From positions 1 through 64,000 of IMG/VR virus record IMGVR_UViG_3300047483_000245: a DNA stretch of 64,000 nucleotides. One strand, given 5' to 3'. Of the stretch, positions 8,619 through 60,554 are shown one piece after another; the first letter of the stretch is position 1, and the number at the start of each line of letters is the position of its first letter. The position numbers were made by a program, and so were the translations under genes. The notes under the pieces were generated by a model. It ran no database searches and was not told the DNA's origin. It worked only from the letters and a program-made list of their open reading frames with translations. Source of the stretch: a virus.

Positions 8619-9083
8619 ATGGCTTATACCAGACCGCCTGTTCAGCCAGGACGAGCACTAAGAAGAAATCCGCCTATACCAGCTGAAACTACGGCTGGTG
8701 TACTTGATTTTAAACTTGACGCTGATATTGCTACTACTGAATACCTGGGTGTAGTGCAGGTTGGCAGTGGATTGTCTATTACACCTGCAGGTGTATTGTC
8801 TGCTACCAACAGCGGGAATGATTTTATCAATGTAAAGCTCACCAGCACAGACTACACTGCAACTGCCACTGATTACTATATTGGTGCTACTAAAAAGGAC
8901 ATAGAAATAACTTTGCCGTTGGGACAACTAGGTAAAGTTTATGTTGTTAAAAATCAAGTCTCAGGCAATATCAAAGTCAAAACTTCAGGTAGCCAAAAGA
9001 TAGATACTTCTTCAGATAAAACACTAGGCACCGATGTCAGTGTTATAGTTGTATTTGACGGTACACGATGGAACGTCATTTAA
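8619..9083 (+). CDS. Fibre-type protein, third copy of the beta domain
   Basis: 154 residues. Pro/Arg-rich start, a spacer with a segment typical of phage fibre shafts (GLSITPAGVLSAT), then the shared domain (KVYVVKNQVSG to VVFDGTRWNVI). Three adjacent genes with the same domain and different N-termini suggest a set of interchangeable surface proteins. Confidence 0.65.
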   Translation: MAYTRPPVQPGRALRRNPPIPAETTAGVLDFKLDADIATTEYLGVVQVGSGLSITPAGVLSATNSGNDFINVKLTSTDYTATATDYYIGATKKDIEITLPLGQLGKVYVVKNQVSGNIKVKTSGSQKIDTSSDKTLGTDVSVIVVFDGTRWNVI

Positions 9084-9095
9084 TAAGGAAAAATC

Positions 9096-9743
9096 ATGTA
9101 TAAAAAAATTACACATACGATCGTTGAAGAGCACTTCGATCACCCAATGGGAGTTGGTATTGCGGCTAACGTAGGTAAGCCAAAATTTGCTCGTAGTACC
9201 CTTGCTGAAATTATGCCAAGCAGTCAGTTTAAAGCGTTTGTAGACAACTACTGCATGGAGCTCGAGGACAAACTGGTCAATTTGGCAAATGCAACATTTG
9301 ACCAAACTTTAGATTTCCAAGCGGCAATTGCCAATGCAATGGATTATGAAGTGCTAGGCAATACTCTTGGCAAGTACTATGACATCGAATTCCAAGAACG
9401 TTTTAATCAACAAATTGGAAATCTAATTATGCAGTTCTTGTTCTATTGGAGAAATTCTATTCGCAAGTTTGATAACAAATCAACAGCCGATAGAATTAAA
9501 CAAAATAATTGGGCTCTTTCGCAAGTTGCAAATCAGTACAACAACTACTGGGACAGAGATATTCTAAGATTGTTGTTAGATGACTTTTCTAACGAATTGA
9601 TCAATTTGGGCAACGCTAAGTTAGCTAAAAACAAAGCCAACGAAACTGCCGCATTAGACAAACTTGCAGCCGCTGGTTCAAAATTATCAAACTATATGTC
9701 CAATGGCGTGCTTCAACAGTTTCCTGAATTGTTTACTGCCTGA
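9096..9743 (+). CDS. Paralogue B of a 220-residue phage family, unknown
   Basis: 215 residues, predicted mostly helical. Related to the protein at 5987 at the N-terminus, the centre and the Tyr-Trp motif. AAGGA lies before the ATG and the stop overlaps the start of the peptidase gene (TGATG), so the two are likely made together. Function unknown. Confidence 0.65.
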   Translation: MYKKITHTIVEEHFDHPMGVGIAANVGKPKFARSTLAEIMPSSQFKAFVDNYCMELEDKLVNLANATFDQTLDFQAAIANAMDYEVLGNTLGKYYDIEFQERFNQQIGNLIMQFLFYWRNSIRKFDNKSTADRIKQNNWALSQVANQYNNYWDRDILRLLLDDFSNELINLGNAKLAKNKANETAALDKLAAAGSKLSNYMSNGVLQQFPELFTA

Positions 9744-10417
9744 TGCCCACAAGGCAAGTTGATCTAAGAGAATGGGCCAGTCCCGTTGAGGAGCAATGGC
9801 AACTGGGTAGTTGCACTGCACAGGCAGTAGTTGGTGCTTACGAACTGCTGACTCGCATGCACTACCCAGATCAGTTAGTTGATCTAAGCAGATTGTTTTT
9901 GTACTACAATGCTCGACGACTCACCGGAGATATCGATGAGGACATAGGTGCTTATATTTCAACTGCCATTGACGCAGTCAAAACCTACGGCCTGTGCCGC
10001 GAAGATTTATGGCCTTACGATCCTGACAAGTTTGATGTAGAGCCCGGGTATATTTGCTATCGTGATGCTCGAAAGAGAACAATAAACAAAGTGTATGAAA
10101 TAACTTCACATGAAGAAATTGTCGATATGCTTGATCGTCGGCACCCTGTAGTAGTCGGTGTTGCAGTATATTCAGACTTTAACCGAATCAACAACCAATC
10201 CACAATATTAAAGATGCCCACTGCAACCGAAGAGCCCATTGGAAGCCATGCCATGTGCATAGTTGGGTACGATGATTCAAAACAACAGTTCCTACTACGA
10301 AATAGTTTTGGGGACGATTGGGGCGAAGGCGGGTACTTTTGGATTCCGTACGAGTACGCAGATGCAAATTTTTCAGATATGTGGACGTTTGATGTACTGC
10401 TAAAAAGTAGCATTTAG
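9743..10417 (+). CDS. Papain-like (C1A) cysteine peptidase
   Basis: 224 residues, the size of a mature papain domain with no propeptide or signal peptide. The catalytic set is visible: Gln about 18-20 and Cys 24 (QLGSCTAQAVVGAYE), His 169 (GSHAMCIVGYDD) and Asn 187 (LLRNSFGDDWGEGGYFW). It may process virion proteins, digest a host surface protein or cut a host target; the fibre-gene context favours a virion-associated role. Family assignment is strong. Confidence 0.85.
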   Translation: MPTRQVDLREWASPVEEQWQLGSCTAQAVVGAYELLTRMHYPDQLVDLSRLFLYYNARRLTGDIDEDIGAYISTAIDAVKTYGLCREDLWPYDPDKFDVEPGYICYRDARKRTINKVYEITSHEEIVDMLDRRHPVVVGVAVYSDFNRINNQSTILKMPTATEEPIGSHAMCIVGYDDSKQQFLLRNSFGDDWGEGGYFWIPYEYADANFSDMWTFDVLLKSSI

Positions 10418-10486
10418 TATTACCTTTTTGTTGCAAAAATACAACACTTTTTCACCACTTTTTTGAAGATTTTTACCAAAAAAAGG

Positions 10487-10515
10487 TTGACCATTTGGCC
10501 CCGGACCTGTATAAT
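10487..10515 (+). promoter_or_regulatory. Host-type promoter TTGACC-17-TATAAT
   Basis: TTGACC 10487-10492 and TATAAT 10510-10515, 17-base spacer, with an A/T-rich stretch just upstream. Drives the 10548 gene. Confidence 0.85.
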
Positions 10516-10547
10516 ATACACATAGCAAAGCAAAACAGGAGTTGATT

Positions 10548-10823
10548 ATGGATATGATAGAAGCAACCAAACTTATTCAAGAACAAGCAACTGCAAACGG
10601 CCGGCCGTTTGCTGAAGAACTGATTTATATTTCCGAGACTCTGAAAGCACCATCTGACATTTACGATGCGTTCATTGTGTACCAAAATGTTGTAAACATT
10701 TATTTTAGTTATGGTGCTAGAAAAGCACGAATCGAGCAGTTTGCCCGCGATTTCAAGTGGTTGTCCCAGGATTTCAAAGATCAAATGTACAATGACACCT
10801 TCGTAGACGCCAAGACTTATTAA
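10548..10823 (+). CDS. Small helical protein, unknown
   Basis: 91 residues. The ATG at 10548 was chosen because AGGAG (10537-10541) lies 6 bases before it; an in-frame TTG two codons earlier is unlikely. Helical, no recognised motif. The next promoter begins directly after its stop. Confidence 0.65.
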   Translation: MDMIEATKLIQEQATANGRPFAEELIYISETLKAPSDIYDAFIVYQNVVNIYFSYGARKARIEQFARDFKWLSQDFKDQMYNDTFVDAKTY

Positions 10824-10852
10824 TTGACTGAAATTGGTTTTGGTAGTATAAT
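10824..10852 (+). promoter_or_regulatory. Host-type promoter TTGACT-17-TATAAT
   Basis: TTGACT 10824-10829 and TATAAT 10847-10852, 17-base spacer. The -35 box starts at the base after the previous stop codon. Confidence 0.85.
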
Positions 10853-10882
10853 AACACATACAGCAACAAACAGGAGCCGAAG

Positions 10883-11167
10883 ATGAAACAAGATCACACC
10901 ATGTACATCTACAAAGCAGACAAGCGTACCAAAAGCGGTGAGCGTCTTGTTAGCACTACAGTTTGGCGCAATCGTGATGCGGCAGAAATGAAACGTGAAG
11001 TTCGTGAACTGCAATACGAGCTGTATCCTACACGCCTGGGCTTTCGCATTGAATTCTTTCCTACAATGAAAACTGTTAAGAACTTGATGACCGGCAAAGA
11101 CGTGCAAATTGACCGTGACACTCCGTGGGCTTGCAACCCTGCTAGCGAAACTTACTGGAGCATGTAA
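10883..11167 (+). CDS. Small basic protein, unknown
   Basis: 94 residues, AGGAG before the ATG. Strand-rich N-terminus (MYIYKADKRTKSGERLVSTT) and a basic helix; could bind nucleic acid, but no family is recognised. Confidence 0.65.
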   Translation: MKQDHTMYIYKADKRTKSGERLVSTTVWRNRDAAEMKREVRELQYELYPTRLGFRIEFFPTMKTVKNLMTGKDVQIDRDTPWACNPASETYWSM

Positions 11168-11169
11168 TT

Positions 11170-11400
11170 GTGAACGAACGATTTAAAGAATTTGAACTAG
11201 AGGCCATTGCCTATGCTGACAGTAAAGTGCCAGCCAACGACCGATATAACGACATTTACCACAGTATCGTCCGTGGTAAGTTCGCCGAGTTGATTGTTCG
11301 GGAATGTGTTACTATTTGTAATGATACAAACGATGCCAGTTATTTGAACGGTGTGATTGCTGGTAGAAAGATTAAACAACATTTCGGAGTTGAAGAATGA
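11170..11400 (+). CDS. Conserved small phage protein with FAELIVREC motif
   Basis: 76 residues with a GTG start. It has the MNER start, FAELIVREC middle and a terminal KQHFGVE segment that I recall as a very common hypothetical in tailed phages. Function unknown. Overlaps the next gene by ATGA. Confidence 0.65.
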   Translation: MNERFKEFELEAIAYADSKVPANDRYNDIYHSIVRGKFAELIVRECVTICNDTNDASYLNGVIAGRKIKQHFGVEE

Positions 11401-11573
11401 TACGAATAATTTTCTTTTGGTTGATACTATTTGCCCTGTTCTTTTTTGGCATAAAATTTCTTAGAAGTTTGTCCGGAAGTGAAGCCTGGGCATTGACAAA
11501 GCTGGTAAGCTATGCTATACTATGTTCACTGCTAACAACAGCATTTTTGGTTCTTATTGTAATTCTTTTTTAA
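11397..11573 (+). CDS. Small two-span membrane protein
   Basis: 58 residues with two hydrophobic segments (about 4-22 and 38-58) separated by a short charged loop. ATGA overlap with the gene before. The promoter for the SPFH gene lies inside its coding sequence. Too little to call a holin. Confidence 0.55.
   Translation: MIRIIFFWLILFALFFFGIKFLRSLSGSEAWALTKLVSYAILCSLLTTAFLVLIVILF
11493..11521 (+). promoter_or_regulatory. Host-type promoter TTGACA-17-TATACT
   Basis: TTGACA 11493-11498 and TATACT 11516-11521 with a 17-base spacer, inside the membrane protein gene. Drives the SPFH lipoprotein gene at 11583. Confidence 0.8.
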
Positions 11574-13415: not shown

Positions 13416-14639
13416 ATGCGTTTACGTGAACTATTATCAGAAGTTAAAATCGACAATCACAAAGGTGCTGGTGCAGTTCCTTATAACCAAGACGTAGACT
13501 ACTTTGGCCTACAGGTTATGATGAAGCCCAGCACATTCCTACGACTGGCTGCACCGCTGGGTCAAGAGCACAGTGCCGAACTAGAAAAATACATTGCCGA
13601 CGGTGGTGCAATTGGTGCTCCGTTTTTAGAAATTAAAATCCCGCCAGAATGGGATGACGGTGACTTCTCTAAGCCTGCACAAGTTGCAGGTCACGAAGGT
13701 CGCAATCGTATGACAGCTATTCAAAAGCTGGAAGGTGATACACCTATTGAAGTGCATATCTTCCCTCGTGGTGGATACCGTGCTCGAGACATTACTCCAG
13801 AGTTTAGGTCTGCAATTGCTCGTGGCTTACAAGCTGAAAAGGCTACAAACATTATTGCAGGTCCGTTATTTGAAGATGACTTAGAAGAAGGTTGGCGAGA
13901 TACACTTACTAACCTGGCCATTGCAGGTGGTGTTGCCGCAGGTGGCATGGGCGGTATGATGGCCAAGCAAGGAGCCGAAAACTACTTCAAAGAGCCCACT
14001 GCCGTAGTTGCACAGGCCCCACAATCTAAGCAAGCAGAAGCACCAAAGACATTTGCACAAGCCAAGTCAGCTCCAAGTGCGCCAGCCGCTGTCAAAGCCG
14101 AACCAAAAGCTGCCGCTAAAAAGATTGATGTTAAACCAATTACTGGAAATCCTCTTGAAAGCGTATTGTTACAAGTTGCAAAATCATCTGGCCTACAAGG
14201 TACAGAACTTGCGGCATTTATGGCCCAGTGTGCTCACGAAACCCTGGACTTCAAGCGTCTAACAGAATTTGGTGGCAGCTTGGACTTCCGCAAATATGAT
14301 CCAAAATATGCTCCAGGAAAAGCCAAGGCTCTGGGCAACAAGCATGTAGGCGATGGTGCAAGATATAAGGGTCGTGGATTCATTCAAATTACAGGACGTT
14401 GGAATTACAAGCAGGCCGGACAAGAATTAGGCTTACCACTGGAAAAACATCCCGAGCTACTTGAAAAGCCAGAAATTGCTGCCAAGGTATCAGTTTGGTT
14501 CTGGAAGCATCGTGTGCAACCAAACGTAGATAACTTTAAAGATACTACCAGTGTTACAAAACAAGTGAACCCGGGCCTGCGTGGACTAGAACAGCGTAAG
14601 GATAACTTTGCTGATTACATGCAAGTTGCCATGAGATAA
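13416..14639 (+). CDS. Late protein with GH19 lysin domain, possible capsid-targeted
   Basis: 407 residues in three parts. Residues 1-9 (MRLRELLSE) match the I/L-x-E leader pattern. Residues about 25-140 form a domain with DVDYFGLQVMMKP and a ParB-like GHEGRNRMTAI motif; I recall this domain from virion-type proteins of marine phages. After a Pro/Ala/Lys-rich linker, the last 165 residues are a GH19-type lysozyme: CAHETLDF carries the catalytic Glu, and GARYKGRGFIQITGRWNY is the family core. It may be a virion-borne peptidoglycan hydrolase, distinct from the endolysin at 34152. Confidence 0.8.
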   Translation: MRLRELLSEVKIDNHKGAGAVPYNQDVDYFGLQVMMKPSTFLRLAAPLGQEHSAELEKYIADGGAIGAPFLEIKIPPEWDDGDFSKPAQVAGHEGRNRMTAIQKLEGDTPIEVHIFPRGGYRARDITPEFRSAIARGLQAEKATNIIAGPLFEDDLEEGWRDTLTNLAIAGGVAAGGMGGMMAKQGAENYFKEPTAVVAQAPQSKQAEAPKTFAQAKSAPSAPAAVKAEPKAAAKKIDVKPITGNPLESVLLQVAKSSGLQGTELAAFMAQCAHETLDFKRLTEFGGSLDFRKYDPKYAPGKAKALGNKHVGDGARYKGRGFIQITGRWNYKQAGQELGLPLEKHPELLEKPEIAAKVSVWFWKHRVQPNVDNFKDTTSVTKQVNPGLRGLEQRKDNFADYMQVAMR

Positions 14640-17342: not shown

Positions 17343-17381
17343 TAAATACTAAAGTAGGGAATTTAGGCCCCACTTTAGTAT
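17343..17381 (+). promoter_or_regulatory. Late promoter inside a start-blocking hairpin (csgF leader)
   Basis: TAAATACT (17343-17350) overlaps the 5' arm of a long hairpin: ATACTAAAGT (17346-17355) pairs with ACTTTAGTAT (17372-17381), plus GGG/CCC inside. The hairpin ends at the base before the ATG. Read-through RNA would hold the start region in a stem, while RNA started from the late promoter (about 17356) would lack the 5' arm. T4 genes e and soc are controlled this way. Confidence 0.6.
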
Positions 17382-17861
17382 ATGAAAAAGATAACTTTAG
17401 CACTAGTTTCAAGCGTGGCATTAAGTGCAGGTGCCGCCGAACTACAACACAATTTTAATAGCCCAGCCTTTAGCGGTTTGGGCTATTCGTCGCATGTCTT
17501 AACTCTAAAGCAGTTAGAAGATCAACAAAAAGACAAAAACAAACAAGCCGCAGAAGCATTAAAAGCGGCCGCTGAGCGTGAGGCTGCAAATACACCACAG
17601 GCACGTTTTAAAGCCAGCATGGAAACTCGCATTTACAGTGAGTTGGCCAAGCGTATTAGCGATAGCTTGTTTGGTTCAAGTCCAAGCGCACCAACTTGCA
17701 CACCTACCAGCAGTGGCGGCCCATGTGGTGACATTGACATTGGCGGACAAAACATTACTTGGACGATCCAAGGTACAAACATAATTGTTAGAATCGCTGA
17801 AATTGCAAATCCAAACAATTACACAGAATTAACAATGCCTTATGCGGCATTTAACATCTAA
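17382..17861 (+). CDS. csgF: CsgF-like curli assembly factor
   Basis: 159 residues with a signal peptide of about 19 (MKKITLALVSSVALSAGAA). The mature start, FNSPAFSGLGYSSHVLTL, is the CsgF segment that in E. coli plugs into the CsgG pore; the middle (RFKASMETRIYSELAKRISD) and the strand-rich C-terminus with a terminal Pro-containing strand also match the family. A Cys pair (CTPTSSGGPC) is an addition. CsgF helps anchor and nucleate curli fibres at the cell surface. It sits 9 bases before the csgG-like gene. Confidence 0.85.
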   Translation: MKKITLALVSSVALSAGAAELQHNFNSPAFSGLGYSSHVLTLKQLEDQQKDKNKQAAEALKAAAEREAANTPQARFKASMETRIYSELAKRISDSLFGSSPSAPTCTPTSSGGPCGDIDIGGQNITWTIQGTNIIVRIAEIANPNNYTELTMPYAAFNI

Positions 17862-17870
17862 GGAACAACT

Positions 17871-18728
17871 ATGAAAAGAACAACGTTATCCTTAGCAATA
17901 TCAGCGGTACTTGTGCTGTCGGGTTGTGCTACAGGTTCTGCGATACGAGAAAAAGTCACTGGCAATCAATTTGATGCACCAGTGGTTGAACAAAATGTAT
18001 TTTTAAAAGATCAGTCGGCCAAGTTAATGCCGCCTGCAACTGGCCCAATCCCAGTGGCTGTTTATGGCTTTCAAGATAAAACTGGTCAGCGTAAAAGCAT
18101 TCCTAACATTGCCAGCTTATCAAGTGCAGTTACACAAGGTGCAGAAAGCTACTTGATCAAAGCATTACAAGATGTTGGACAAGCTCGTTGGTTTACAGTA
18201 TTAGAACGTGTTGGCTTAGAGAACTTAATCAAAGAGCGCCAAATGATTCGTCAAGCTCGCGAACAGTACCAAGGCAAAGATGCCAAGCCATTAACACCAA
18301 TGATGTTTGCAGGTATTATTGTTGAAGGCGGTATTGTTGGTTATGACAGCAACACATTAACAGGCGGATCCGGTGTTCGTTTATTAGGCATTGGGGCAAG
18401 CACACAATATCAAAGCGATACTGTTACAGTTAATTTAAGAACAGTAAGCGTTTCTACAGGCGAAGTGCTAACAAGCGTTACAGTGACCAAAACTGTATTA
18501 AGCTACATGGACAAATTTGGTGTGTTAAAATTTGTTGACAGCGGAACACAAAGTGTTGAAGCTGAAACTGGCGCTAGTATTAATGAAAGCATCAATAAAG
18601 CAGTTAATTTGGCTGTTCAGGCTGCTGTAGTCAATACTATTCACGAAGGTGCTCGTAAGGGGCACTGGAGTTTTAAGGAAGATAAGCCGGCGGCTGAAGA
18701 AGTAAAAGGCGGGGCAACTGCACAATAA
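17871..18728 (+). CDS. csgG: CsgG-like curli secretion pore (lipoprotein)
   Basis: 285 residues, close to the 277 of E. coli CsgG. Lipobox LSGC gives Cys 19. Family segments can be followed throughout: PIPVAVYGFQDKTGQRKSIP, SSAVTQGAESYLIKAL, RWFTVLERVGLENLIKERQM, IVEGGIVGYDSNTLTGG, GIGASTQYQSDTVTVNLR and TGEVLTSVTVTKTVLSY. CsgG forms a nonameric outer-membrane channel that exports curli subunits. An Ala/Glu/Lys-rich tail is extra. A phage copy could export the curlin-like proteins encoded next to it. Confidence 0.93.
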   Translation: MKRTTLSLAISAVLVLSGCATGSAIREKVTGNQFDAPVVEQNVFLKDQSAKLMPPATGPIPVAVYGFQDKTGQRKSIPNIASLSSAVTQGAESYLIKALQDVGQARWFTVLERVGLENLIKERQMIRQAREQYQGKDAKPLTPMMFAGIIVEGGIVGYDSNTLTGGSGVRLLGIGASTQYQSDTVTVNLRTVSVSTGEVLTSVTVTKTVLSYMDKFGVLKFVDSGTQSVEAETGASINESINKAVNLAVQAAVVNTIHEGARKGHWSFKEDKPAAEEVKGGATAQ

Positions 18729-18875
18729 GTTTAAGAAAAACTGTGCATGGATCTTGCTTGTACAGTATGTAGGTCTTGGAAAAACTTACACTCTCTGGCA
18801 AGATCATAGAGAGTTAATTAACGGGATATATCCCAAGGAGCTAGGCAGAGAAAAGTAATCTGTTTAGGTTTTAAA
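18729..18875 (+). promoter_or_regulatory. Structured 147-base leader before the curlin-like gene
   Basis: GATCTTGC (18750-18757) can pair with GCAAGATC (18798-18805); the latter also sits in the loop of another hairpin, ACTCTCT (18790-18796) with AGAGAGT (18808-18814). GGGATATATCCC (18823-18834) is a perfect palindrome and is followed by AAGGAG at 18835-18840, 35 bases from the ATG. Competing helices suggest an RNA switch or processing site that sets the level of the fibre protein. Confidence 0.45.
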
Positions 18876-19673
18876 ATGAATAGAAGTATAACAAAAGTTT
18901 GTTTGCTTACAGCGGCATTAATGGCTACTGGCACTGCATGGTCCCAAGCCGCAACTGGCCCAAACAAAGTATACATTGAACAAATTGGCAATAGCAACAC
19001 TGTTACCATTCAACAAGTTGGCGGAACAAACAACGTAGGTGGTATTGCGTTGAGTACACCTACTAGTGTTAGCGCAAGTGGCATCACAACACTAAGTCCT
19101 GCGGCACCAAGTTCGTCTAACTATGCTACAATTACAGGTAGTAGCAACACGGTTGCACTTACACAAACTGGTAACGGCAACAGTGCTCAGTATGACTTGC
19201 AAGGCAACAACAACGTTTACACTAGTACAGTAACTGGCCACAGTAACCAAACTAGTCTAACAATTGGCGATGTTAACAATGCATCAAACTTGCGTAATAC
19301 TGTTACTGAAACTATCACAGGTGACAGCAACTTGATTATTCAGCAATTGGTGGGCAGTGATATCACTAGCACTACTGCAATCACTGGCAACTCAAACCAA
19401 ATTACCAAAGAGTTAAAAAGCTCAAACGGTACAAGTGATATTGACATTAGTGGTAACAGCAACGTGTTGAACATTCAACAAGTGGATGCGGCTGGTGCTA
19501 ATGGTCACTACTTAAAGCAAGTTATTGCTGGTAGCTTTAACAGTATCACAACTCAACAACAAGGTACAAACGATACCACAGTTGATATCCGCGCAACCGG
19601 CAGCAACAACACAATTACTGTAAGAACCAGCAGTAGTAGTATTGTTACTCCAGGTACAGCTATTGCGAGATAA
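18876..19673 (+). CDS. Curlin-repeat fibre subunit (CsgA/CsgB-like)
   Basis: 265 residues with a signal peptide (about 1-25, ending TAWSQA). The mature protein opens with VYIEQIGNSNTVTIQQVGG, the Q-x-G-x-x-N-x-x-x-x-Q spacing of curlin repeats, and continues with roughly eight further G-x-S/N-N-type units rich in Asn, Thr, Ser and Gln. Such proteins are secreted unfolded and assemble into amyloid beta-solenoid fibres. Longer than E. coli CsgA (about 150). Substrate of the CsgG-like pore by inference. Confidence 0.8.
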   Translation: MNRSITKVCLLTAALMATGTAWSQAATGPNKVYIEQIGNSNTVTIQQVGGTNNVGGIALSTPTSVSASGITTLSPAAPSSSNYATITGSSNTVALTQTGNGNSAQYDLQGNNNVYTSTVTGHSNQTSLTIGDVNNASNLRNTVTETITGDSNLIIQQLVGSDITSTTAITGNSNQITKELKSSNGTSDIDISGNSNVLNIQQVDAAGANGHYLKQVIAGSFNSITTQQQGTNDTTVDIRATGSNNTITVRTSSSSIVTPGTAIAR

Positions 19674-19676
19674 TCA

Positions 19677-20783
19677 ATGTGGAAGGCGCTGTTTGCCACA
19701 CTTCTAATCGCAAGCAATACTACCACTTTTGCCAGTGGTAGTATTGGTGTTGTGTCCGACAATAAAGGAACACAATGTGAAGTACAACGTGGCAAAACAA
19801 AATCATCAGGCATAAAAGGTGCTAGCATTGAAAGCATGGATACCTACCTCACACAAGCCTGTGCCTCAAACATTACATTTAAAGACGACACCAAAGTAAA
19901 GGTTACAGAAAACTCCAAGTTGGTAATCGATGACTTTGTGTTTGATCCAAAAAATTCAGATGCTGGCAAACTAGCAATGAAAGTGACAATGGGCACTGTT
20001 CGTTATGCCAGCGGACAAATTGCTAAAAATAATCCACAACAGGTTGCAGTTAAAACACCAACTGCCAACATTGCTGTTCGTGGTACAGACTTTTCAATGA
20101 CTGTAGATGAAACAGGTCAAAGTTTAATTGTTCTATTGCCAAGTTGCAAAGAAGAAAGCGAACAAAAGAAATATGAGTTAGAGGAAAATCGTTGCAGAGT
20201 TGGACAGATATCTGTATCTAATAGTGCTGGCACAGTGGTATTAGATAAGGCATTTGAAGCCACATACATTACCAGTGCAGACATACGTCCAACTGCACCA
20301 ACAGTTATTCATACTGTTGAAAGTAAGATCAACAACAATTTAATTATCGTACGTCCGCACGAAGTAGAACGTGCTATCCGCGACAACACTGGTCGTACCA
20401 AACGCGAAGAATTAGAAGCTGAAATTGAAGCCGAGGCCGCCCGTCGTTTAGCGCAACGTGTTCGAGAGTCCAACGAAGAACTTGAACGTGCAAGATTATT
20501 AGCAATAGCAGAAGCTGCCGGTAAAACTGGTTGTAATGCAAGTACTAATATTTGCGTTACTTGGGCTAATCCTGATGCACAGGAAATACAAAGCCGTGGC
20601 AAGGGCATAGCATTTAGAAGCAACGAAGATCATTATGCTGAAGTAAAGACACAAGGCTACAGTAGCAATACTGCAATTACCATTGTACATAACGATGCCA
20701 GTGCCAGTGAACTAATTGGTGCAGGTGGCGGCGGGGGCAATACTGTTTATATCAAGCAGAACCTTGGGGTGCTACGCAGATGA
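19677..20783 (+). CDS. Secreted FecR-domain protein of the curli cluster
   Basis: 368 residues with a signal peptide (about 1-19). Residues about 60-155 match the FecR domain, including TPTANIAVRGTDFSM, the family's most conserved strand. A long charged helix (about 235-280) follows, and the protein ends in a glycine run and NTVYIKQNLGVLRR. VYI-x-Q is also how the two curlin-like proteins begin (VYIEQIG, VYIDQIG), so this end may join or cap the fibre. The domain is seen; the role is inferred. Confidence 0.75.
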   Translation: MWKALFATLLIASNTTTFASGSIGVVSDNKGTQCEVQRGKTKSSGIKGASIESMDTYLTQACASNITFKDDTKVKVTENSKLVIDDFVFDPKNSDAGKLAMKVTMGTVRYASGQIAKNNPQQVAVKTPTANIAVRGTDFSMTVDETGQSLIVLLPSCKEESEQKKYELEENRCRVGQISVSNSAGTVVLDKAFEATYITSADIRPTAPTVIHTVESKINNNLIIVRPHEVERAIRDNTGRTKREELEAEIEAEAARRLAQRVRESNEELERARLLAIAEAAGKTGCNASTNICVTWANPDAQEIQSRGKGIAFRSNEDHYAEVKTQGYSSNTAITIVHNDASASELIGAGGGGGNTVYIKQNLGVLRR

Positions 20784-20956
20784 TGTTTGAAAGCGAATTG
20801 CGTCACATGTACCAGGCCTGGCAGCAAGGACAAGACAATTACATACTTGATTCACACCGTTTTGTTGAATGGGCAGCGGCATGGAACAAGGCATCAACAG
20901 ATGTAATGCTAAAAGAGCTACAGCGTTATTCTTGGTTTAAAAGGTTAGAGGCATGA
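20780..20956 (+). CDS. Small protein of the curli cluster, unknown
   Basis: 58 residues, Trp/Gln/Arg-rich (YQAWQQGQDN, FVEWAAAW), no signal peptide. ATGA overlaps on both sides lock it into the operon. It might be a cytoplasmic chaperone for the fibre subunits, but nothing proves this. Confidence 0.6.
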   Translation: MMFESELRHMYQAWQQGQDNYILDSHRFVEWAAAWNKASTDVMLKELQRYSWFKRLEA

Positions 20957-21516
20957 AAAAGATATTTTTATTATTGTTGTTATTGTGTTTAAATGCGTTT
21001 GCCCAAACAAATAACAGCCGAGTTTACATTGACCAAATTGGAAATATGAGTAGCATAGCTGTAAACCAGTCTGGAACAAAGAACAACTACGCTGAATATA
21101 TCAGCAGTGGATCATTGAACACTATAGCAATCACTCAAACTAGCAATTCTCTTACTGTGTCAAACTACGCAGTTGTAACAGTGCCTAGCGACAATAATAC
21201 AGTAAATGTTATTCAGCAAAGCATTGGCGGAGACAAAGTAATCTTTGCCACCGTTAATAATGGCGGTAATAGTTTACTAATTCAACAAAAGGATTCGGGA
21301 AGTCACTGGGCTGATATTACCCTTTCTGGCGGTAGTAAAAACGTTGATGTTACTCAGCAAGGCAGTGCCAGTCACATGGCTCGTATCAATCTAAGTGGTT
21401 TGGCACAAGATTTAAGCATAACTCAAAGTGGTAGCACTCAACAATACTATTCAATCACTAGCAATTGTGCTACAGCAGGTGGTTGTGCTAAGATCACTGT
21501 CAATCAAGGACAGTAA
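20953..21516 (+). CDS. Second curlin-repeat protein (possible nucleator)
   Basis: 187 residues with a signal peptide (about 1-17, ending NAFA). The mature start VYIDQIGNMSSIAVNQSGT parallels that of the 18876 protein, and at least five further strands with I-x-x-Q spacing follow (NTIAITQ, NTVNVIQQ, NSLLIQQ, KNVDVTQQG, QDLSITQSG). It is about the size of CsgA/CsgB. With two curlin-like proteins, one may be the major subunit and this one the nucleator; which is which cannot be told from sequence. Confidence 0.75.
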   Translation: MKKIFLLLLLLCLNAFAQTNNSRVYIDQIGNMSSIAVNQSGTKNNYAEYISSGSLNTIAITQTSNSLTVSNYAVVTVPSDNNTVNVIQQSIGGDKVIFATVNNGGNSLLIQQKDSGSHWADITLSGGSKNVDVTQQGSASHMARINLSGLAQDLSITQSGSTQQYYSITSNCATAGGCAKITVNQGQ

Positions 21517-25442: not shown

Positions 25443-25471
25443 TTGACTTTCAGACAAAAGTATGCTAAATT
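25443..25471 (+). promoter_or_regulatory. Probable promoter TTGACT-17-TAAATT, leaderless start
   Basis: TTGACT 25443-25448, then TAAATT 25466-25471 (4 of 6 consensus) after 17 bases. The ATG at 25477 is 5 bases after the -10 box. Confidence 0.5.
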
Positions 25472-25476
25472 ATAGT

Positions 25477-27513
25477 ATGAAAAACTTTATTCCTGGACCA
25501 TGGAGTATTGCCTGGGTAGCTGTTACGGCAGTTGTACTTGTTGCATTAAAAATCTCCAACCCCAAGCCTGTTGAAAGCATTCAACTCAAAGGCTTTGACA
25601 CATTACTTGCTACAGATACACCAGTTGATTCTGATCGTGTTGTTATCGTTGACATTGGCGAAGCCAGTATCGAACGCTTGGGCCAATGGCCTTGGCCGCG
25701 CAAGGATCTAGCACGAGCCATTGATCGCATTCAAGAACTAGGTGCATCAGCAGTTGTTGTTCCTGTTATCATGAGTGAAGCAGATCGACTAGGCGGTGAC
25801 AAGGACTTAGTTAATACACTGGCACATACAAACAGTGTTATTGCACAAGCACCTACTACACAAAATAAAAAGCCTGACGCTGTTCGTCGTGGTGTTGCTG
25901 TTATTGGTGGTGATCCGCTAGAGTGGACTTACACATGGCCCGGCGCACTGAGTCCTTACAAGCCCCTGGCTGATGCAGCCGCTGGTGTTGGTACCAGTGT
26001 TGTTGCTCCTGAAGTAGACGGTGTTGTTAGACGCATGCCACTTATCGTAGGCGTAGGCGATCAAATATATCCCAGCTTGCCAATCGAAGCACTTCGTGTT
26101 GCTACAGGACAAACCAGCTATCAAGTCAAAATGAGTTCAGCTGGTATTGAAAAAGTTCGTATTGCTGGACAACCTGTTGTCACAACAGACGAACGAGCTA
26201 GAGTTTGGCTACGATGGAACAAGAACTTCACACGCTATGAATTATCTGAGCTGTCTAAGAAAAAAGTAGATCTTCGAGGCAAAGTGGTAGTGCTGGGTCT
26301 AGCAGTAGAAGGCCTAGGTGGTATTATTGCTACACCACGTAGTGAAGCCTGGGCACACGATATTCAAGCACAAACTGTGCAGACTTTGCTTGACGGTGAT
26401 AGTCCTGTACGTCCTGCATTTGCCAATACTATTGAATTGATAACAATTGTGTTGATAGCGTTTCTACTAATTTTCGCAATGCCTAGATTGCCGTTTTGGG
26501 CAGTAGGCACAGCATTACTTGCAACAGTGGGTGGTGTAGTGTGGGGTAGCTTCTTTGCTTGGACTAATTACCTACAGCTATGGGACATTTACTTTTTAAC
26601 TATCAGTGCAGTTGTATTATATGGTCATGCCTTGTTTGCTAGATTTGTAATTGAGTTCAAACAAAAGCAACAAATCAAGAAACAGTTTGGTACGTACCTA
26701 AGTCCAGCACTGGTTGCCAAGCTACAAAAGAATCCCGAGATGTTGCAGTTGGGCGGTGACGAACGTGAATTGAGTATTATGTTTACAGACGTTCGTGGCT
26801 TTACTACGATCTCTGAACACTATGGTCGAGATGTACAAGGACTTACTAAAATTATGAACCGTTATATGACTGCAATGACTAAAAAGATCATTGACAATAA
26901 CGGCACGTTAGACAAGTACATTGGCGATGCCCAAATGGCATTTTGGAACGCACCCGTTGACGAAGAACGTCATGCACACATGGCTGTTAAAACAGCATTA
27001 GAAATGATGGAGAGTTTGGATGAGTTTAATCGAGAAGTTACGGCAGAAGGTATCCCGCCTTTTGGTATGGGTCTTGGGATTAATAGTGCAGTTGTTGTGG
27101 TCGGTAACATGGGATCTGATCAGCGTTTTGACTATACTTGCCTGGGCGATGGCGTCAATCTTGCGTCCCGACTTGAGGGACAAAGTAAGCCTTATGGCGT
27201 ACGAATTATATTGGGACAGCGAACTGCTGAACTTGTTAAGGATGAATACCCGACGATAGAATTGGATTGTATTGCAGTTAAAGGCAAGAATGTAGGTGTT
27301 AAAATCTACACGCTAGGCGCAACCAATACAACACTACACGACACATATCTAACTGCATACTATCGCGGTGACTGGGACCGTGCCAAGAAACAATGCGAAA
27401 AGCTGATCAAGTTAGATAACGAACTACGACAGTACTATGAAAACATGTTAGAGCGCATGAATGAAGGCTTGCCTGCTAATTGGGATGGCACATACCGTGC
27501 CACAAGTAAATAA
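25477..27513 (+). CDS. CHASE2-domain adenylate cyclase
   Basis: 678 residues. One membrane helix (about 9-26), a periplasmic CHASE2 sensor (about 30-310; GLAVEGLGGIIATPRS near its end), three membrane helices (about 318-336, 340-362 and 370-390), then a class III cyclase domain. Catalytic residues are intact: metal-binding Asp 438 (FTDVRGFT) and Asp 484 (KYIGDAQMAFW), Lys 480 and Asp 552 for adenine choice, Asn 561 and Arg 565 (NLASRLE) for the transition state. A helical tail (about 625-665) follows. It should make cAMP in response to an outside signal. ATG 25477 was chosen over 25462 from the promoter position. Confidence 0.88.
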   Translation: MKNFIPGPWSIAWVAVTAVVLVALKISNPKPVESIQLKGFDTLLATDTPVDSDRVVIVDIGEASIERLGQWPWPRKDLARAIDRIQELGASAVVVPVIMSEADRLGGDKDLVNTLAHTNSVIAQAPTTQNKKPDAVRRGVAVIGGDPLEWTYTWPGALSPYKPLADAAAGVGTSVVAPEVDGVVRRMPLIVGVGDQIYPSLPIEALRVATGQTSYQVKMSSAGIEKVRIAGQPVVTTDERARVWLRWNKNFTRYELSELSKKKVDLRGKVVVLGLAVEGLGGIIATPRSEAWAHDIQAQTVQTLLDGDSPVRPAFANTIELITIVLIAFLLIFAMPRLPFWAVGTALLATVGGVVWGSFFAWTNYLQLWDIYFLTISAVVLYGHALFARFVIEFKQKQQIKKQFGTYLSPALVAKLQKNPEMLQLGGDERELSIMFTDVRGFTTISEHYGRDVQGLTKIMNRYMTAMTKKIIDNNGTLDKYIGDAQMAFWNAPVDEERHAHMAVKTALEMMESLDEFNREVTAEGIPPFGMGLGINSAVVVVGNMGSDQRFDYTCLGDGVNLASRLEGQSKPYGVRIILGQRTAELVKDEYPTIELDCIAVKGKNVGVKIYTLGATNTTLHDTYLTAYYRGDWDRAKKQCEKLIKLDNELRQYYENMLERMNEGLPANWDGTYRATSK

Positions 27514-37595: not shown

Positions 37596-39941
37596 ATGAA
37601 ACGTGTGGCAATGATTGGATTAGGTAAGCTAGGCTTGCCATGTGCAGAAGTAATGGCCGAACATTACGAAGTATGCGGATATGATATCAACACAGTTGAT
37701 CCCACTATGACTGTGGCTATTAAAAGCTCCATTGAAGAAGCTGTTAAAGGCGCTGACATTATCTTTGTTGCAGTACCTACACCGCACAATCCACAATACG
37801 GTGGCGAAACTCCTATCTCCAACATGACACCATGTGACTTTGATTATGGTCCTGTTATTCGAGTATTTGAACAAATCAATCCACACGTTACACAAGATCA
37901 ATTGGTAGTGTTGATCAGTACAGTACTACCCGGCACTGTACGTGATCAACTGATTGGTTATCTGACCAATGCACGTTTCATTTACAATCCATATCTTATT
38001 GCCATGGGATCTGTCAAATGGGACATGGTTAATCCAGAGTGTTTGATCATTGGTACAGAAGATGGTAGTACCACTGGTGATGCACAAGAGCTAATTGAAT
38101 TTTACAAGCCCTTAATGAAGAACGAGCCCCGTGTTAATGTGGGTACATGGGACGAAGCAGAAGCTATCAAGATCTTTTACAATACATTTATTTCAGCCAA
38201 GATTGGTCTTGTTAACATGATTCAAGACGTTGCTGAAAAGAATGGCAACATCAACGTAGATGTGGTAACAGATGCGCTTAAAGCTGCCACACAACGTATC
38301 ACTGGACCACGCTATTTGACAGCAGGCTTGGGTGATGCAGGTGCTTGCCATCCCCGCGACAACATTGCCCTGCGTTGGTTAAGTGGCAAGTTAGATCTGG
38401 GCTATGACATGTTCCATGCTATCATGAGTGCTCGTGACAGTCAGGCACAGGCCATGGCCAGTAAGTTAGTACGACTTGCACAAGAAAACAATCTTCCTGT
38501 TGTTATTCACGGAAAGGCATACAAGCCGTATGTTCCTTATACAATTGGCAGCTATAGCTTATTAGTAGGACACTTTGTTGAGCATTCTGGCGTAGAGTTA
38601 TTTTACGTTGACCCGTTAACCGGAGATGATACTGCGCCAGAAAGTCCAGCTGTAGTGTTAATGGCACACAATCCAGCTATTACGTATGCAGGAACTGGCG
38701 TTGAAGTAAAAGCAGATGAGTTTTATTATGATATTGCGCCAGGTAGCATCTTAGTTGACCCATGGCGCACAATTAAAGAGTTTCCAGGTTGCAAGGTAGT
38801 ACATTACGGCAATCCTAAATTTAGTTTACCAACGCTTAATGGCCGTATTTTAAATCCAGTTAACAGTTGTGATATCTTTGTTGAATTGTATTCACAGTTT
38901 AAATTTACTTCTAAGCGTGAAGAGCCAATGACATACTTTGCACTAGCACCAATCGAAGCAGTTAACAAAGACAGTACGGCACAACAATATATTAAATTAT
39001 TGCACACTCGTATTGGTGAATTTAAACCCAATGACCGCATTGTGTTTATTACACCGCACGAAGGTATGATTGCACATGCGTTTATGTGGCAAGATAGGTT
39101 AAACAAATTTTGGCCTGAATTGACCAAAGACCAATGGTATTATGCCAATGAGTTACAAAGTCCCAACCAAGCACTTGCGGTATTACAAAAAACAAAAGAT
39201 GATATTAACTTGTTAAATTTTGTTTCAATCAATAATTGGGTAGATAGAAATATTGTAGTTAATCACGCTTACGAAAACAAAACTGCAAACTTTTTAAGTT
39301 ACAATCGTGTTATCAAAGCACATCGTTGTCATTTGGTAGGCGAAATGCGACTACATAATTTAATTGATGGCAATATGGTTAGCTTTGTCCCAAGCGGCGA
39401 ACTGTACCCAGGGGTAGTTAAAACTGCAACTGAAGTTGCTGAAAACTCACTGTACTTGCACCCCGACGTAAAAGCAAGAATCTTACCTGTATTAGATAAG
39501 CCATTGACCATTGACGAATACGATGTAACACAAAATGGTCCGCAAGTAAGCAATCATTATGAGCAAGCATTGCTAAGTGTAATTGCCGAAACCACTTACG
39601 AAAACGGTGATGTGTTTATCAGCGAAAAGACATTCCGTGCTATTGCACACGGGCATCCGTTTATTATTGTAGGACCAGCCGAGTCTTTGCGTGTATTACG
39701 AAGCATGGGATTTGAAACATTCGACGGCGTCATTGACGAGTCTTACGATCAAGAATATGACGCAAATACTCGCATGTGGAAGATTATCACAGAATTAAAT
39801 CGCATCAACTCATTGCCAGATCAAGAACGTTTTGACTTGTTCCATAAGTTAATGAACATTGCCAACCGCAACAAAGAAAAGTTTGATTCTACCCCGTCAT
39901 ATAACAACGGCACATTTTGGAAATTTGTCAGCGAAATATGA
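37596..39941 (+). CDS. Fusion: UDP-glucose/GDP-mannose dehydrogenase-like plus GT10-like domain
   Basis: 781 residues. Residues 1-415 are a nucleotide-sugar dehydrogenase: NAD-binding GLGKLGLPCAEVM, a Lys at 202 (FISAKIGLVN) and catalytic Cys 251 (GLGDAGACHPRDN). The C-terminal 350 residues end in the glycosyltransferase-like segment VFISEKTFRAIAHGHPF, GFETFDGVIDESYDQ, related to the neighbours. The fusion would couple making a sugar acid nucleotide to its transfer. The downstream gene starts within its stop codon. Dehydrogenase part secure; the second half is a family-level guess. Confidence 0.8.
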   Translation: MKRVAMIGLGKLGLPCAEVMAEHYEVCGYDINTVDPTMTVAIKSSIEEAVKGADIIFVAVPTPHNPQYGGETPISNMTPCDFDYGPVIRVFEQINPHVTQDQLVVLISTVLPGTVRDQLIGYLTNARFIYNPYLIAMGSVKWDMVNPECLIIGTEDGSTTGDAQELIEFYKPLMKNEPRVNVGTWDEAEAIKIFYNTFISAKIGLVNMIQDVAEKNGNINVDVVTDALKAATQRITGPRYLTAGLGDAGACHPRDNIALRWLSGKLDLGYDMFHAIMSARDSQAQAMASKLVRLAQENNLPVVIHGKAYKPYVPYTIGSYSLLVGHFVEHSGVELFYVDPLTGDDTAPESPAVVLMAHNPAITYAGTGVEVKADEFYYDIAPGSILVDPWRTIKEFPGCKVVHYGNPKFSLPTLNGRILNPVNSCDIFVELYSQFKFTSKREEPMTYFALAPIEAVNKDSTAQQYIKLLHTRIGEFKPNDRIVFITPHEGMIAHAFMWQDRLNKFWPELTKDQWYYANELQSPNQALAVLQKTKDDINLLNFVSINNWVDRNIVVNHAYENKTANFLSYNRVIKAHRCHLVGEMRLHNLIDGNMVSFVPSGELYPGVVKTATEVAENSLYLHPDVKARILPVLDKPLTIDEYDVTQNGPQVSNHYEQALLSVIAETTYENGDVFISEKTFRAIAHGHPFIIVGPAESLRVLRSMGFETFDGVIDESYDQEYDANTRMWKIITELNRINSLPDQERFDLFHKLMNIANRNKEKFDSTPSYNNGTFWKFVSEI

Positions 39942-58351: not shown

Positions 58352-59562
58352 TGCGTAAGCTCTTCTATATGGGCCTTGAGCCCTATGAAGGGCGATACAC
58401 TCTCCAACTCCAGCAATGGAACGAGAGTGTATTTCGCCGCCGTGGCATTGACTATGTTGTAGTGCCAGGACAGACTATTGACAATACCAAAGCAATTAGT
58501 GTGGGACAAGTGTTAGACGCACATGGCCGAAGCTTCTTTGGTATGAGTCAAATGATGAACTTGGTTCAAATGATGCGTAGTGGTGAAGTTACTGGCCAAG
58601 ACGTTATCTACTTTGAAGACATGTTCCAACCTGGTATCGAATCCCTTCCATACATTATGGATCAGATTCCACACCACCAACGTCCCCGTGTTTTTGTACG
58701 TTGCCTTGCACAAGCTATTGATCCCGATGACTTTGTTCATGTATGGGGCATGGGTAAGTGGATGAGCCTGTATGAAAAGATGGTCAATGAGTTTGCTACT
58801 GTATTGGCTACCAATGAAGAAATGGTTGCTCACATGCGTATCGCAGGATACGAAGCACCTATCTATAACATCAGTGGTTTAGCATTTGGTAAAGATGAAG
58901 TACTTGCTCGTGTAAACAATCAAGTTAAGCCGTGGGCTGAACGTGCCGACAGAGTTGTATTTGCCGCAAGGTTTGACCAAGAGAAGCAACCTGACTTCTT
59001 TATGGACTTGATCGAAGCATGGCATCGTAATAACATGCCTTGGGTTGAGTTTGCGGTACTGAGTGGTGGTCCGTTGCGCAGTAACAATCCTAAATATCTT
59101 GAACGTGCGGCGCAGTTAGAAGAACGTGGCATGCTAAAGATCTACAAGGATTTACAAAAGAATCAGTACTATAATATTGTCAATGACAGTAAGGTGCTGT
59201 TCAATTGTGCGTTGCAAGACTGGGTAAGCAACACTGTAAGTGAAGCAGACACATTAGGCTGTAATGTGCTGTATCCTGCGTATCGTAGCTTTCCAGAAAC
59301 GTTTGCAAACGATCACACAAGAATGTATGTGCCGTGGAGCCAACAAGATGCGTTTGACAAATTGACAACATTGTTAAAAGCTCCACATCCTGCTATGGGC
59401 AAGATTAGTGATTGGAACAATGGTACCATTGATCGCATTTGCGACATTATGGAAACTGCTGGCACAGTTGCAGAAGGTGGTATGAGTTGTAAGGCCGCTC
59501 AGTGGAATCGTGCAGGGAATCGATACCGCGATCATGTTGCAGGAGCAAAGTATAAACTATGA
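58351..59562 (+). CDS. GT-B glycosyltransferase
   Basis: 403 residues, TAATG start. The C-terminal half has the GT4-like layout: RVVFAARFDQEKQPDFFMDL (donor-side strand and helix), LKIYKDLQKNQYYNIVNDSK and NTVSEADTLGCNVLYPAYRS with the E-x-x-x-x-G region. N-terminal half is a Rossmann-like acceptor domain. It lies among replication and sugar-nucleotide genes, so it could glycosylate DNA as in T4 or a surface glycan. Fold likely, acceptor unknown. Confidence 0.75.
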   Translation: MRKLFYMGLEPYEGRYTLQLQQWNESVFRRRGIDYVVVPGQTIDNTKAISVGQVLDAHGRSFFGMSQMMNLVQMMRSGEVTGQDVIYFEDMFQPGIESLPYIMDQIPHHQRPRVFVRCLAQAIDPDDFVHVWGMGKWMSLYEKMVNEFATVLATNEEMVAHMRIAGYEAPIYNISGLAFGKDEVLARVNNQVKPWAERADRVVFAARFDQEKQPDFFMDLIEAWHRNNMPWVEFAVLSGGPLRSNNPKYLERAAQLEERGMLKIYKDLQKNQYYNIVNDSKVLFNCALQDWVSNTVSEADTLGCNVLYPAYRSFPETFANDHTRMYVPWSQQDAFDKLTTLLKAPHPAMGKISDWNNGTIDRICDIMETAGTVAEGGMSCKAAQWNRAGNRYRDHVAGAKYKL

Positions 59563-60554
59563 CAGATAAATGGGTCGCCATTACAGGTTGCAATGGTTAC
59601 ATTGGCGGGCAGACTGCATTACGATTTAAAGACCTTGGGTACAAAGTCCTGGGCGTAGATCGTAATGCTACTGCTCCTTGGATTACCGAGCAACTAGATC
59701 AAGTTATTAAAGGAGACTTTAATAACGCAATGTTCATCAATTCTTTTATTGACAAGAACCCAGTCGCACTTATTCATATCGCAGGTACAAGTCTAGTGGG
59801 ACCTAGTATGACAGACCCGGGTCCTTACTATGCTAACAATGTAGGCAACACTGCCAAGCTATTAGCATCTTTGGCTGAACGTGGCTGGCACAAGACTGTG
59901 GTGTTTTCGTCAAGTGCCGCAGTGTATGGCGAGCCTACTGTTAATACACTTACTGAATATAGTCCAACACTTCCAATTAGTCCTTATGGGCAAAGCAAGT
60001 TGATGGCCGAACAAGTTCTGCGTGATTGTGCAAAAGGTTATGGTTTTAAAACAGTAGCCCTTCGTTATTTTAATGCATGTGGTGCCGACTCAAAGGTTCG
60101 TCATGGACAGTTAAAAGCCGCAACACATGTGATTGCTCGCATCATGGAGACTATTGTCAATAAAGGTGTGTTCACTTTAAACGGCACCGATTATCCTACA
60201 GCTGATGGTACTTGTGTTCGCGACTACTTGCACGTTGAGGATATTGCCGAAGCACATTATCTAGCTACCAAGTGGGGCGAAGGTGTTGATAAAGGTACTT
60301 CAATTGAATTGAATCTTGGCTCTGGTAAAGGTGTAAGCATTACAGAAGTTATCAATTCAGTTGAACGTATCACTGGCCGTACTGTATTGGTACATAAAGG
60401 TCCTGCGCGAGCTGGTGATCCAGCCACATTAGTTGCCTATGCTGACAAAGCAAAGAAGACCATGGGATGGACTCCTGCGAACAGTTCAATTGACAACATT
60501 GTAAAGACTGCATGGTCTTGGTATAACTCGGCCGAGTATAGGGGCAGAGCATGA
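59559..60554 (+). CDS. galE: UDP-glucose 4-epimerase (GalE-like)
   Basis: 331 residues, ATGA start. NAD site GCNGYIGG, the S-S-A-A-V-Y-G segment, catalytic YGQSK and RYFNACGAD are the marks of GalE-type short-chain dehydrogenases, and DGTCVRDYLHVEDIAEAH is the family's C-terminal signature. Interconverts UDP-glucose and UDP-galactose. It probably supplies the glycosyltransferase gene just before it. Confidence 0.9.
   Translation: MTDKWVAITGCNGYIGGQTALRFKDLGYKVLGVDRNATAPWITEQLDQVIKGDFNNAMFINSFIDKNPVALIHIAGTSLVGPSMTDPGPYYANNVGNTAKLLASLAERGWHKTVVFSSSAAVYGEPTVNTLTEYSPTLPISPYGQSKLMAEQVLRDCAKGYGFKTVALRYFNACGADSKVRHGQLKAATHVIARIMETIVNKGVFTLNGTDYPTADGTCVRDYLHVEDIAEAHYLATKWGEGVDKGTSIELNLGSGKGVSITEVINSVERITGRTVLVHKGPARAGDPATLVAYADKAKKTMGWTPANSSIDNIVKTAWSWYNSAEYRGRA

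Follow-up and report, generated by a model that had tools for sequence, protein, structure and literature searches.

A candidate curli-type secretion and fibre module in a viral genome, with exchangeable domains on one curlin-repeat protein and a predicted RNA element at the first curlin gene

Background

Genes of the curli-type (type VIII) secretion system are known from phages. csgF and csgG were described in pelagimyophages in 2020, together with a proposal that they serve solute uptake (PMC7029224), and in 2022 the arrangement histidine kinase-CsgF-CsgG-CsgA/B-FecR-CsgA/B-adenylate cyclase was reported from pelagiphages of two families, with CsgA/B explicitly identified beside CsgF and CsgG (PMC9599517). 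The pelagiphage module is expressed in ocean metatranscriptomes, and aggregation, defence against superinfection and import have been hypothesised as its functions (PMC9599517). The phage Melnitz was said to lack csgA and csgB, and a role in lysis was proposed (PMC9004378, 2022). Here we analyse a locus of this kind in 64,000 nucleotides of viral DNA (the window; positions 1 to 64,000 of the 74,480-base IMG/VR record IMGVR_UViG_3300047483_000245). It is probably a phage-encoded type VIII secretion module that equips the surface of infected cells with an adhesive fibre of amyloid type whose tips are exchangeable.

The module and its relatives

The core of the module, within positions 17343 to 21516, comprises genes for CsgF, CsgG, a first curlin-repeat protein, a FecR-domain protein, a protein of 58 amino acids and a second curlin-repeat protein; these genes, the RNA element and the cyclase gene described below are on the plus strand. 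The six open reading frames of a preliminary description of this DNA were all found at their coordinates, and the ATGA overlaps that it noted are real for the FecR gene and the 58-residue frame, and for the latter and the second curlin gene. Profile searches recovered curlin repeats and the CsgF, CsgG and FecR families among the module proteins, and the assignments of the last three proteins were borne out by both Pfam and PHROGs matches. Since each of the three has a phage family of its own in PHROGs (phrog_35372, phrog_20175 and phrog_37870), the arrangement is not unique.

Relatives were gathered by scanning IMG/VR with CsgG, which yielded 104 loci, of which 80 were kept (individual loci carry L numbers here); the count of 81 viral loci used below includes the window and leaves out its own copy (L001) and one bacterium (L082). 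The comparison of neighbourhoods across viral contigs that the preliminary description had suggested showed the same gene order to recur: CsgF-CsgG-curlin 1-FecR was found in every viral locus reaching far enough (75/75). FecR is present in 75 of the 81 loci, and the other six break off inside csgG, shortly past it or in the first of the curlin genes. Where the contig continues, the second curlin gene comes after FecR in most loci; in L066, a curlin-FecR-curlin half lies nearby on the opposite strand.

In a tree built from 42 viral and 24 bacterial CsgG sequences, the viral proteins fell on a single branch with a support of 100/100. The window CsgG falls in a virus-only clade of 28, with HTVC008M and Melnitz outside, and this clade includes T4-type jumbo phages of up to 353 kb. 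A T4-type major capsid protein (E < 1e-80) is encoded in four related records of 353, 349, 280 and 213 kb, and thus jumbo myophages carry the module. The source record of the window itself encodes a phage-type DNA polymerase, nearest to those of the jumbo T4-like phages Sinorhizobium phage Phosso (48%) and Agrobacterium phage Atu_ph07 (47%).

CsgF, CsgG, the two curlin-repeat proteins and FecR are under purifying selection: compared with the close relatives L008 and L010, the ratio of nonsynonymous to synonymous divergence (dN/dS) was 0.03–0.11 for all five genes, at dS values of 0.8–2.0. A misassembled host fragment, the refuting outcome considered in the preliminary description, is ruled out by this selection, by third-codon-position GC values of the module that fall within those spanned by its flanking genes, and by matching flanks in the independent contigs L004, L008, L010 and L040, which have in common a gene for a 502-residue protein upstream and an amidoligase-like gene downstream.

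FecR protein and CHASE2 cyclase

The secreted FecR-domain protein (19677–20783; PF04773, E = 2.2e-9; phrog_37870, E = 5.7e-72) has, by inspection, a signal peptide at its start and the FecR domain directly after it, and ends in a curlin-like strand, GGGGNTVYIKQ. Anti-sigma factors of the FecI-FecR type are marked by a cytoplasmic anti-sigma domain ahead of the membrane anchor. The strand motif N/G/T-x-V-x-I-x-Q occurs within the last 20 residues of 37 of 40 divergent viral FecR proteins, against a background of 1.4% of other 20-residue stretches; the remaining three have, as judged by eye, a similar Q-terminated strand at the end. In a 32-row alignment, Q361 of the tail is the sole invariant column past residue 223. 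Among 18 bacterial FecR-like proteins, two have such a tail and 16 do not. The idea that the tail is a detectable curlin homologue was dropped, and the claim is confined to the motif level, since profile searches did not rise above shuffled decoys; what the sequences suggest is a resemblance of one strand, not proven homology with curlins.

The CHASE2-sensor adenylate/guanylate cyclase (25462–27513; PF05226, E = 3.7e-42; PF00211, E = 3.2e-19) shares 41% and 40% identity with the cyclases of Melnitz and HTVC008M, respectively. In relatives it is the last module gene, and 50 of 80 contigs have a homologue of at least about 140 amino acids in the vicinity of the module, many others being cut off. 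In the window, the amidoligase-like gene and others separate it from the rest of the module, so that the span given in the preliminary description, which does enclose the core genes, left this gene outside.

Bacterial comparisons are based on sampled genomes, as the scan of genome contigs produced one bacterial relative only. In Alphaproteobacteria, a FecR relative and a CHASE2-cyclase relative occurred no more than 5 kb apart in 27 cases, compared with 0.65 expected, and neither gene was found near csgG in any of the 24 bacterial curli operons sampled. This pairing without curli is what would be expected if FecR and the cyclase were a host iron/cyclic AMP regulatory pair physically unrelated to the fibre, the FecR part being as in the 2022 account of the pelagiphage module. 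Such a role is possible but doubtful: the phage FecR gene sits between the two curlin genes, usually in translational overlap with the second, and its product carries the conserved curlin-like C-terminal strand that is mostly missing from the bacterial partners. We rather infer that the phage module is a curli operon joined to a FecR/CHASE2 signalling pair, in which FecR would report on the fibre or the pore.

The 58-residue frame (20780–20956), which overlaps both of its neighbours, matched no family. It is found between FecR and curlin 2 in few relatives only, and hence appears to be an optional insertion; in L062 it lies between curlin 1 and FecR, and this distribution suggests a mobile or optional passenger gene.

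Curlin-repeat proteins

Curlin-repeat protein 1 (18876–19673), the probable main fibre subunit, matched the curlin-repeat family PF07012 just under the cut-off of 20.7 bits (E = 0.0022, 18.3 bits), and curlin-repeat protein 2 (20953–21516) matched it over the cut-off (E = 1.7e-4, 21.9 bits). N-x-V-x-I-x-Q motifs number four in one of the two proteins and three in the other, compared with shuffle expectations of 0.12 and 0.11, respectively. The nearest solved structure to protein 1 is that of a curlin protein (PDB 8c50, E = 1.7e-4). AlphaFold2 modelled protein 1 as a beta-solenoid (predicted local distance difference test (pLDDT) score 78, predicted template modelling score 0.76), and it did so also for the C-terminal 165 residues of the protein 2 relative of L004 (pLDDT mostly 80–94), the domain homologous to the window's protein 2; the solenoid folds envisaged in the preliminary description are thus predicted for the one protein directly and for the other through this relative. 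The outcome named there as refuting, neither a curlin-repeat match nor a solenoid prediction, therefore did not occur. A Foldseek search with the solenoid gave no match with E < 0.001, the hits being generic beta-helices and SufB/SufD at VIA-align Z scores of 15–16, which on the modelled structure indicate fold class and not relationship.

The two proteins differ in how they vary. Protein 1 is nearly constant in length (about 265 residues in the window, about 250–290 in the window's clade). Protein 2 ranges from about 140 to 759 residues across relatives because its N-terminal part is swapped. Pfam identified an F5/8-type-C domain in protein 2 of L008, L031 and L069, and PA14 versions are found in L022, L054, L063 and HTVC008M; the N-terminal domain of L004 is predicted to be a jelly-roll, the best Foldseek matches of which include the sugar-binding Fbs1, Fbs2 and FBG3 domains and a viral capsid projection. 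Other kinds of N-terminal domain occur among the relatives as well. Protein 2 is a bare short form, with no extra domain, in the window, L020 and L037. Between L007 and L040, the N-terminal domains are 86% identical, at 76% for CsgG, 64% for FecR and 68% for the curlin part. Conversely, L004 and L007 have CsgG proteins that are 95% identical, but unrelated N-terminal domains. The F5/8-type-C cassette is 92% identical between L008 and L030, and 71% identical to that of L069, a member of another clade. As judged from these sequences, the domains of protein 2 move between phages independently of the module backbone. Phage receptor-binding proteins show swapping of this kind, which suggests that a binding domain is displayed on the fibre. 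Exchangeable domains of sugar-binding type also speak more for adhesion or display than for an open pore that would serve uptake or lysis.

The solenoids might instead be non-amyloid, acting as soluble or cell-bound adhesins or decoys that leave through the CsgG pore, with protein 2 as effector and protein 1 as its carrier. The exchangeable domains do sit on protein 2, and protein 1 is of fixed length with irregular inserts, unlike CsgA of E. coli, the repeats of which are regular. Nevertheless, we regard this as unlikely: the repeat motifs and the solenoid models fit curlins, and fibre assembly is indicated by the pair of curlin-type proteins in combination with CsgF, which in bacterial systems couples export to nucleation.

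CsgF and CsgG

The CsgF-like protein (17382–17861), a secreted and probable partner of the CsgG pore, matched PF10614 over the cut-off (E = 5.7e-7) and phrog_35372 (E = 1.2e-26), and phmmer found no match to it among the solved structures of the PDB. Its N-terminal pore-insertion motif is kept in the viral form NSPAFSGxGYSSHVLT, which aligns with the bacterial NPSFGGNP motif. CsgG, the outer-membrane secretion pore (17871–18728), is a lipoprotein with an LSGC lipobox and strong matches to PF03783 (E = 2.8e-53) and to CsgG in the PDB (E = 9.5e-51). In many relatives (L011–L053) the CsgG frame extends to about 400 residues through a variable C-terminal part; the window protein has no such extension. 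A 1499-bp record of Salmonella phage S.Kent 1-2-1 (OR851715.1) also contains a 44% match to CsgG, possibly host Salmonella csgG DNA.

CsgE had not been seen in the preliminary description, and profile searches of the 74,480-base record and 18 related records agree, the E. coli control being detected. In E. coli, CsgE gates and boosts export. It has likewise been reported missing from pelagiphages and from the alphaproteobacterial module (PMC9599517), and the wider family can therefore do without CsgE; export without it must use another gate or an open pore.

As to the substrates, positions 8734–11528 of the GenBank record of Melnitz (L084, MZ577097) encode two curlin-repeat proteins flanking a FecR protein, in agreement with our own profiles, and HTVC008M likewise has curlin-repeat proteins around FecR. 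The published statement that csgA and csgB are missing is therefore contradicted by Melnitz's own record, and the premise of the lysis hypothesis fails. That CsgG, with or without CsgF, forms an ungated channel for lysis (PMC9004378) or solute uptake (PMC7029224), with the curlin-like genes as passengers, would suit the absence of the CsgE gate but is improbable, given that Melnitz does encode the supposedly missing substrates, that curlin 1 and FecR are present in every locus extending far enough, and that both are constrained like the pore (dN/dS 0.03–0.07 against the two closest relatives).

RNA element at the first curlin start

The spacer between csgG and curlin 1 is 147 nucleotides long and 94% identical among six close relatives, despite near saturation of synonymous sites in the genes flanking it. 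Its predicted folding is more stable than that of all 200 shuffled sequences (z –3.4). Covariation, a covariance model and predicted folds delimit a structured RNA where translation of curlin 1 begins (18821–18878), consisting of hairpin A (18823–18834), the Shine-Dalgarno sequence AAGGAG (18835–18840), hairpin B (18841–18867) and the AUG at 18876. According to the predicted fold, hairpin B, the stem of which covaries, shortens the distance between the Shine-Dalgarno sequence and the AUG from 35 to 8 nucleotides. In an alignment of 14 divergent loci, 90.6% of the pair cells hold standard pairs (70.3% after shuffling, at most 49% in slid controls) and double changes number 34, compared with 12.6 after shuffling; the covariation score was 0.62 versus 0.27, and none of 500 shuffles reached 0.62.

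The covariance model recovered the element at curlin 1 in the untrained loci L041, L055, L040 and L026, and weakly in L057, with one match per record even in the records of 353 and 280 kb. No element was detected by the model in deeper-clade records such as L068 and L078, and Rfam gave no match in the window. An AAUAA loop is present in 14 of 19 sequences (shuffled mean, 5). A Pfam search for RegA, a candidate binder of such a loop, found none, but the control also gave no match. A kissing loop in the wider csgG-curlin spacer (GAUCUUGC/GCAAGAUC) was considered as well; the pairing is kept in close relatives but absent from L025, for which reason the idea was dropped. Comparative sequence data thus support a covarying double hairpin that brackets the Shine-Dalgarno sequence of the first curlin gene only, and the element may tune subunit supply.

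Proposed mechanism

The mechanism envisaged here goes beyond the gene set, its fixed order, the purifying selection, the predicted solenoid folds, the exchangeable domains and the RNA structure described above. CsgG and CsgF would form an outer-membrane pore during infection and export curlin-repeat protein 1, which would polymerise on the surface of the infected cell to give an amyloid-type fibre; the module can work only in a host with an outer membrane. Protein 2 would join the fibre via its C-terminal solenoid, its N-terminal domain of sugar-binding type serving in most relatives as the adhesive tip, which the window's protein 2 would have lost or lack. FecR, with its curlin-like last strand, may dock on or cap the fibre or the pore and relay its state to the cyclase by way of the CHASE2 domain in the periplasm, resulting in a change in cyclic AMP, and the split Shine-Dalgarno RNA would place translation of the main subunit under separate control. 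The most likely benefit would be that infected cells adhere and aggregate, or that they are shielded from superinfection. The complete picture, a viral surface-display machine with an amyloid-type fibre, tip domains exchanged as in tail fibres, FecR contact with CHASE2 signalling and split Shine-Dalgarno control, is offered tentatively.

Several observations weigh against this model. No fibre and no clumping were seen with the cultured phage Melnitz (PMC9004378), CsgE is missing from all 19 records searched, and the window's own protein 2 has no domain to display. Moreover, the FecR tail scored no better against curlin profiles than shuffled decoys, with a low hhalign probability, and the cyclase lies 3.9 kb off in the window, its membership in the module resting on analogy with relatives.

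If virus-made fibres do form on infected cells, phages would remodel how doomed cells stick to other cells, to particles and to other phages.

Neighbouring genes

The placement of the module among phage late genes on both sides, as given in the preliminary description, found weak support: a GH19 endolysin-type gene lies upstream, but most neighbours are without any match. No enrichment of the T4 late-promoter word TATAAATA was seen, which goes against T4-type late promoters. Proteins encoded at 13416, 15798, 21544, 23555 and 29525 of the window start with similar leaders (MRLRELLSE, MKFKMLLRQLLTE, MKLRDVN, MKIQDVTE and MKLRELI, respectively). These leaders recall the capsid-targeting sequences of T4 that are cleaved by the prohead protease, and by this analogy the leader-bearing neighbours, including the GH19 endolysin-like and amidoligase-like proteins, may be packaged in the head. 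Genes of UDP-glucose dehydrogenase type and for nucleotide-sugar epimerases at 37596–39941 and 59559–60554 possibly form a set for surface-sugar modification.

Comparison with known systems

The closest described system is the pelagiphage type VIII secretion module (HTVC008M and HTVC023P-type podophages; PMC9599517, PMC7029224), which shares the series CsgF-CsgG-curlin-FecR-curlin-adenylate cyclase and the lack of CsgE. The co-occurrence of pore and candidate substrates, on which the preliminary description had laid its emphasis, is well supported but not new, having been published for pelagiphages in 2022 (PMC9599517). The functions suggested there, namely adhesion, aggregation, superinfection exclusion, solute uptake and lysis, have likewise all been put forward in the literature; the preliminary description offered them as alternatives. 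The window differs in its separate CsgG clade, in the short gene before protein 2 and in its displaced cyclase; moreover, the podophages have a histidine kinase upstream, whereas no HATPase_c domain was found in the window record. The Methylophilales phage Melnitz (PMC9004378) has the same module, with two curlin-repeat proteins and FecR in its record, which corrects the published claim that it has no curlin genes. The module is thus not limited to pelagiphages but belongs to one viral gene lineage that reaches jumbo phages.

Bacterial curli (csgBAC-csgDEFG) and alphaproteobacterial csgFG-curlin operons likewise combine CsgF, CsgG and at least two curlin-repeat proteins, but the 24 operons sampled have no FecR or CHASE2-cyclase gene nearby, and the phage module lacks CsgE. 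A periplasmic FecR-domain protein together with a CHASE2 sensor is also found in bacterial clusters, with cyclases in Campylobacterota (PMC9239204) and with a kinase in the BiofilmReg operon of Burkholderia (PMC5192318); these show no linkage to curli among the sampled bacteria, and their FecR-like proteins mostly lack the curlin-like tail (16 of 18). For the RNA element, the nearest precedents are T4 genes 25 and 38, with a split Shine-Dalgarno arrangement in which a hairpin between this sequence and the AUG shortens the spacing (PMC3014915). In the window, too, the predicted hairpin B would restore optimal spacing; the element differs in the gene concerned, the second hairpin just upstream of the Shine-Dalgarno sequence, its wide conservation and the AAUAA loop. 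What had been a vague "curli auxiliary gene" is thereby resolved into parts that can be tested: the swapped domains of protein 2, the FecR tail with its resemblance to a curlin strand, and the RNA element. Beyond the published accounts, the locus and its relatives add a separate virus-only CsgG clade, a modular protein 2, a curlin-like FecR tail and a predicted double-hairpin RNA.

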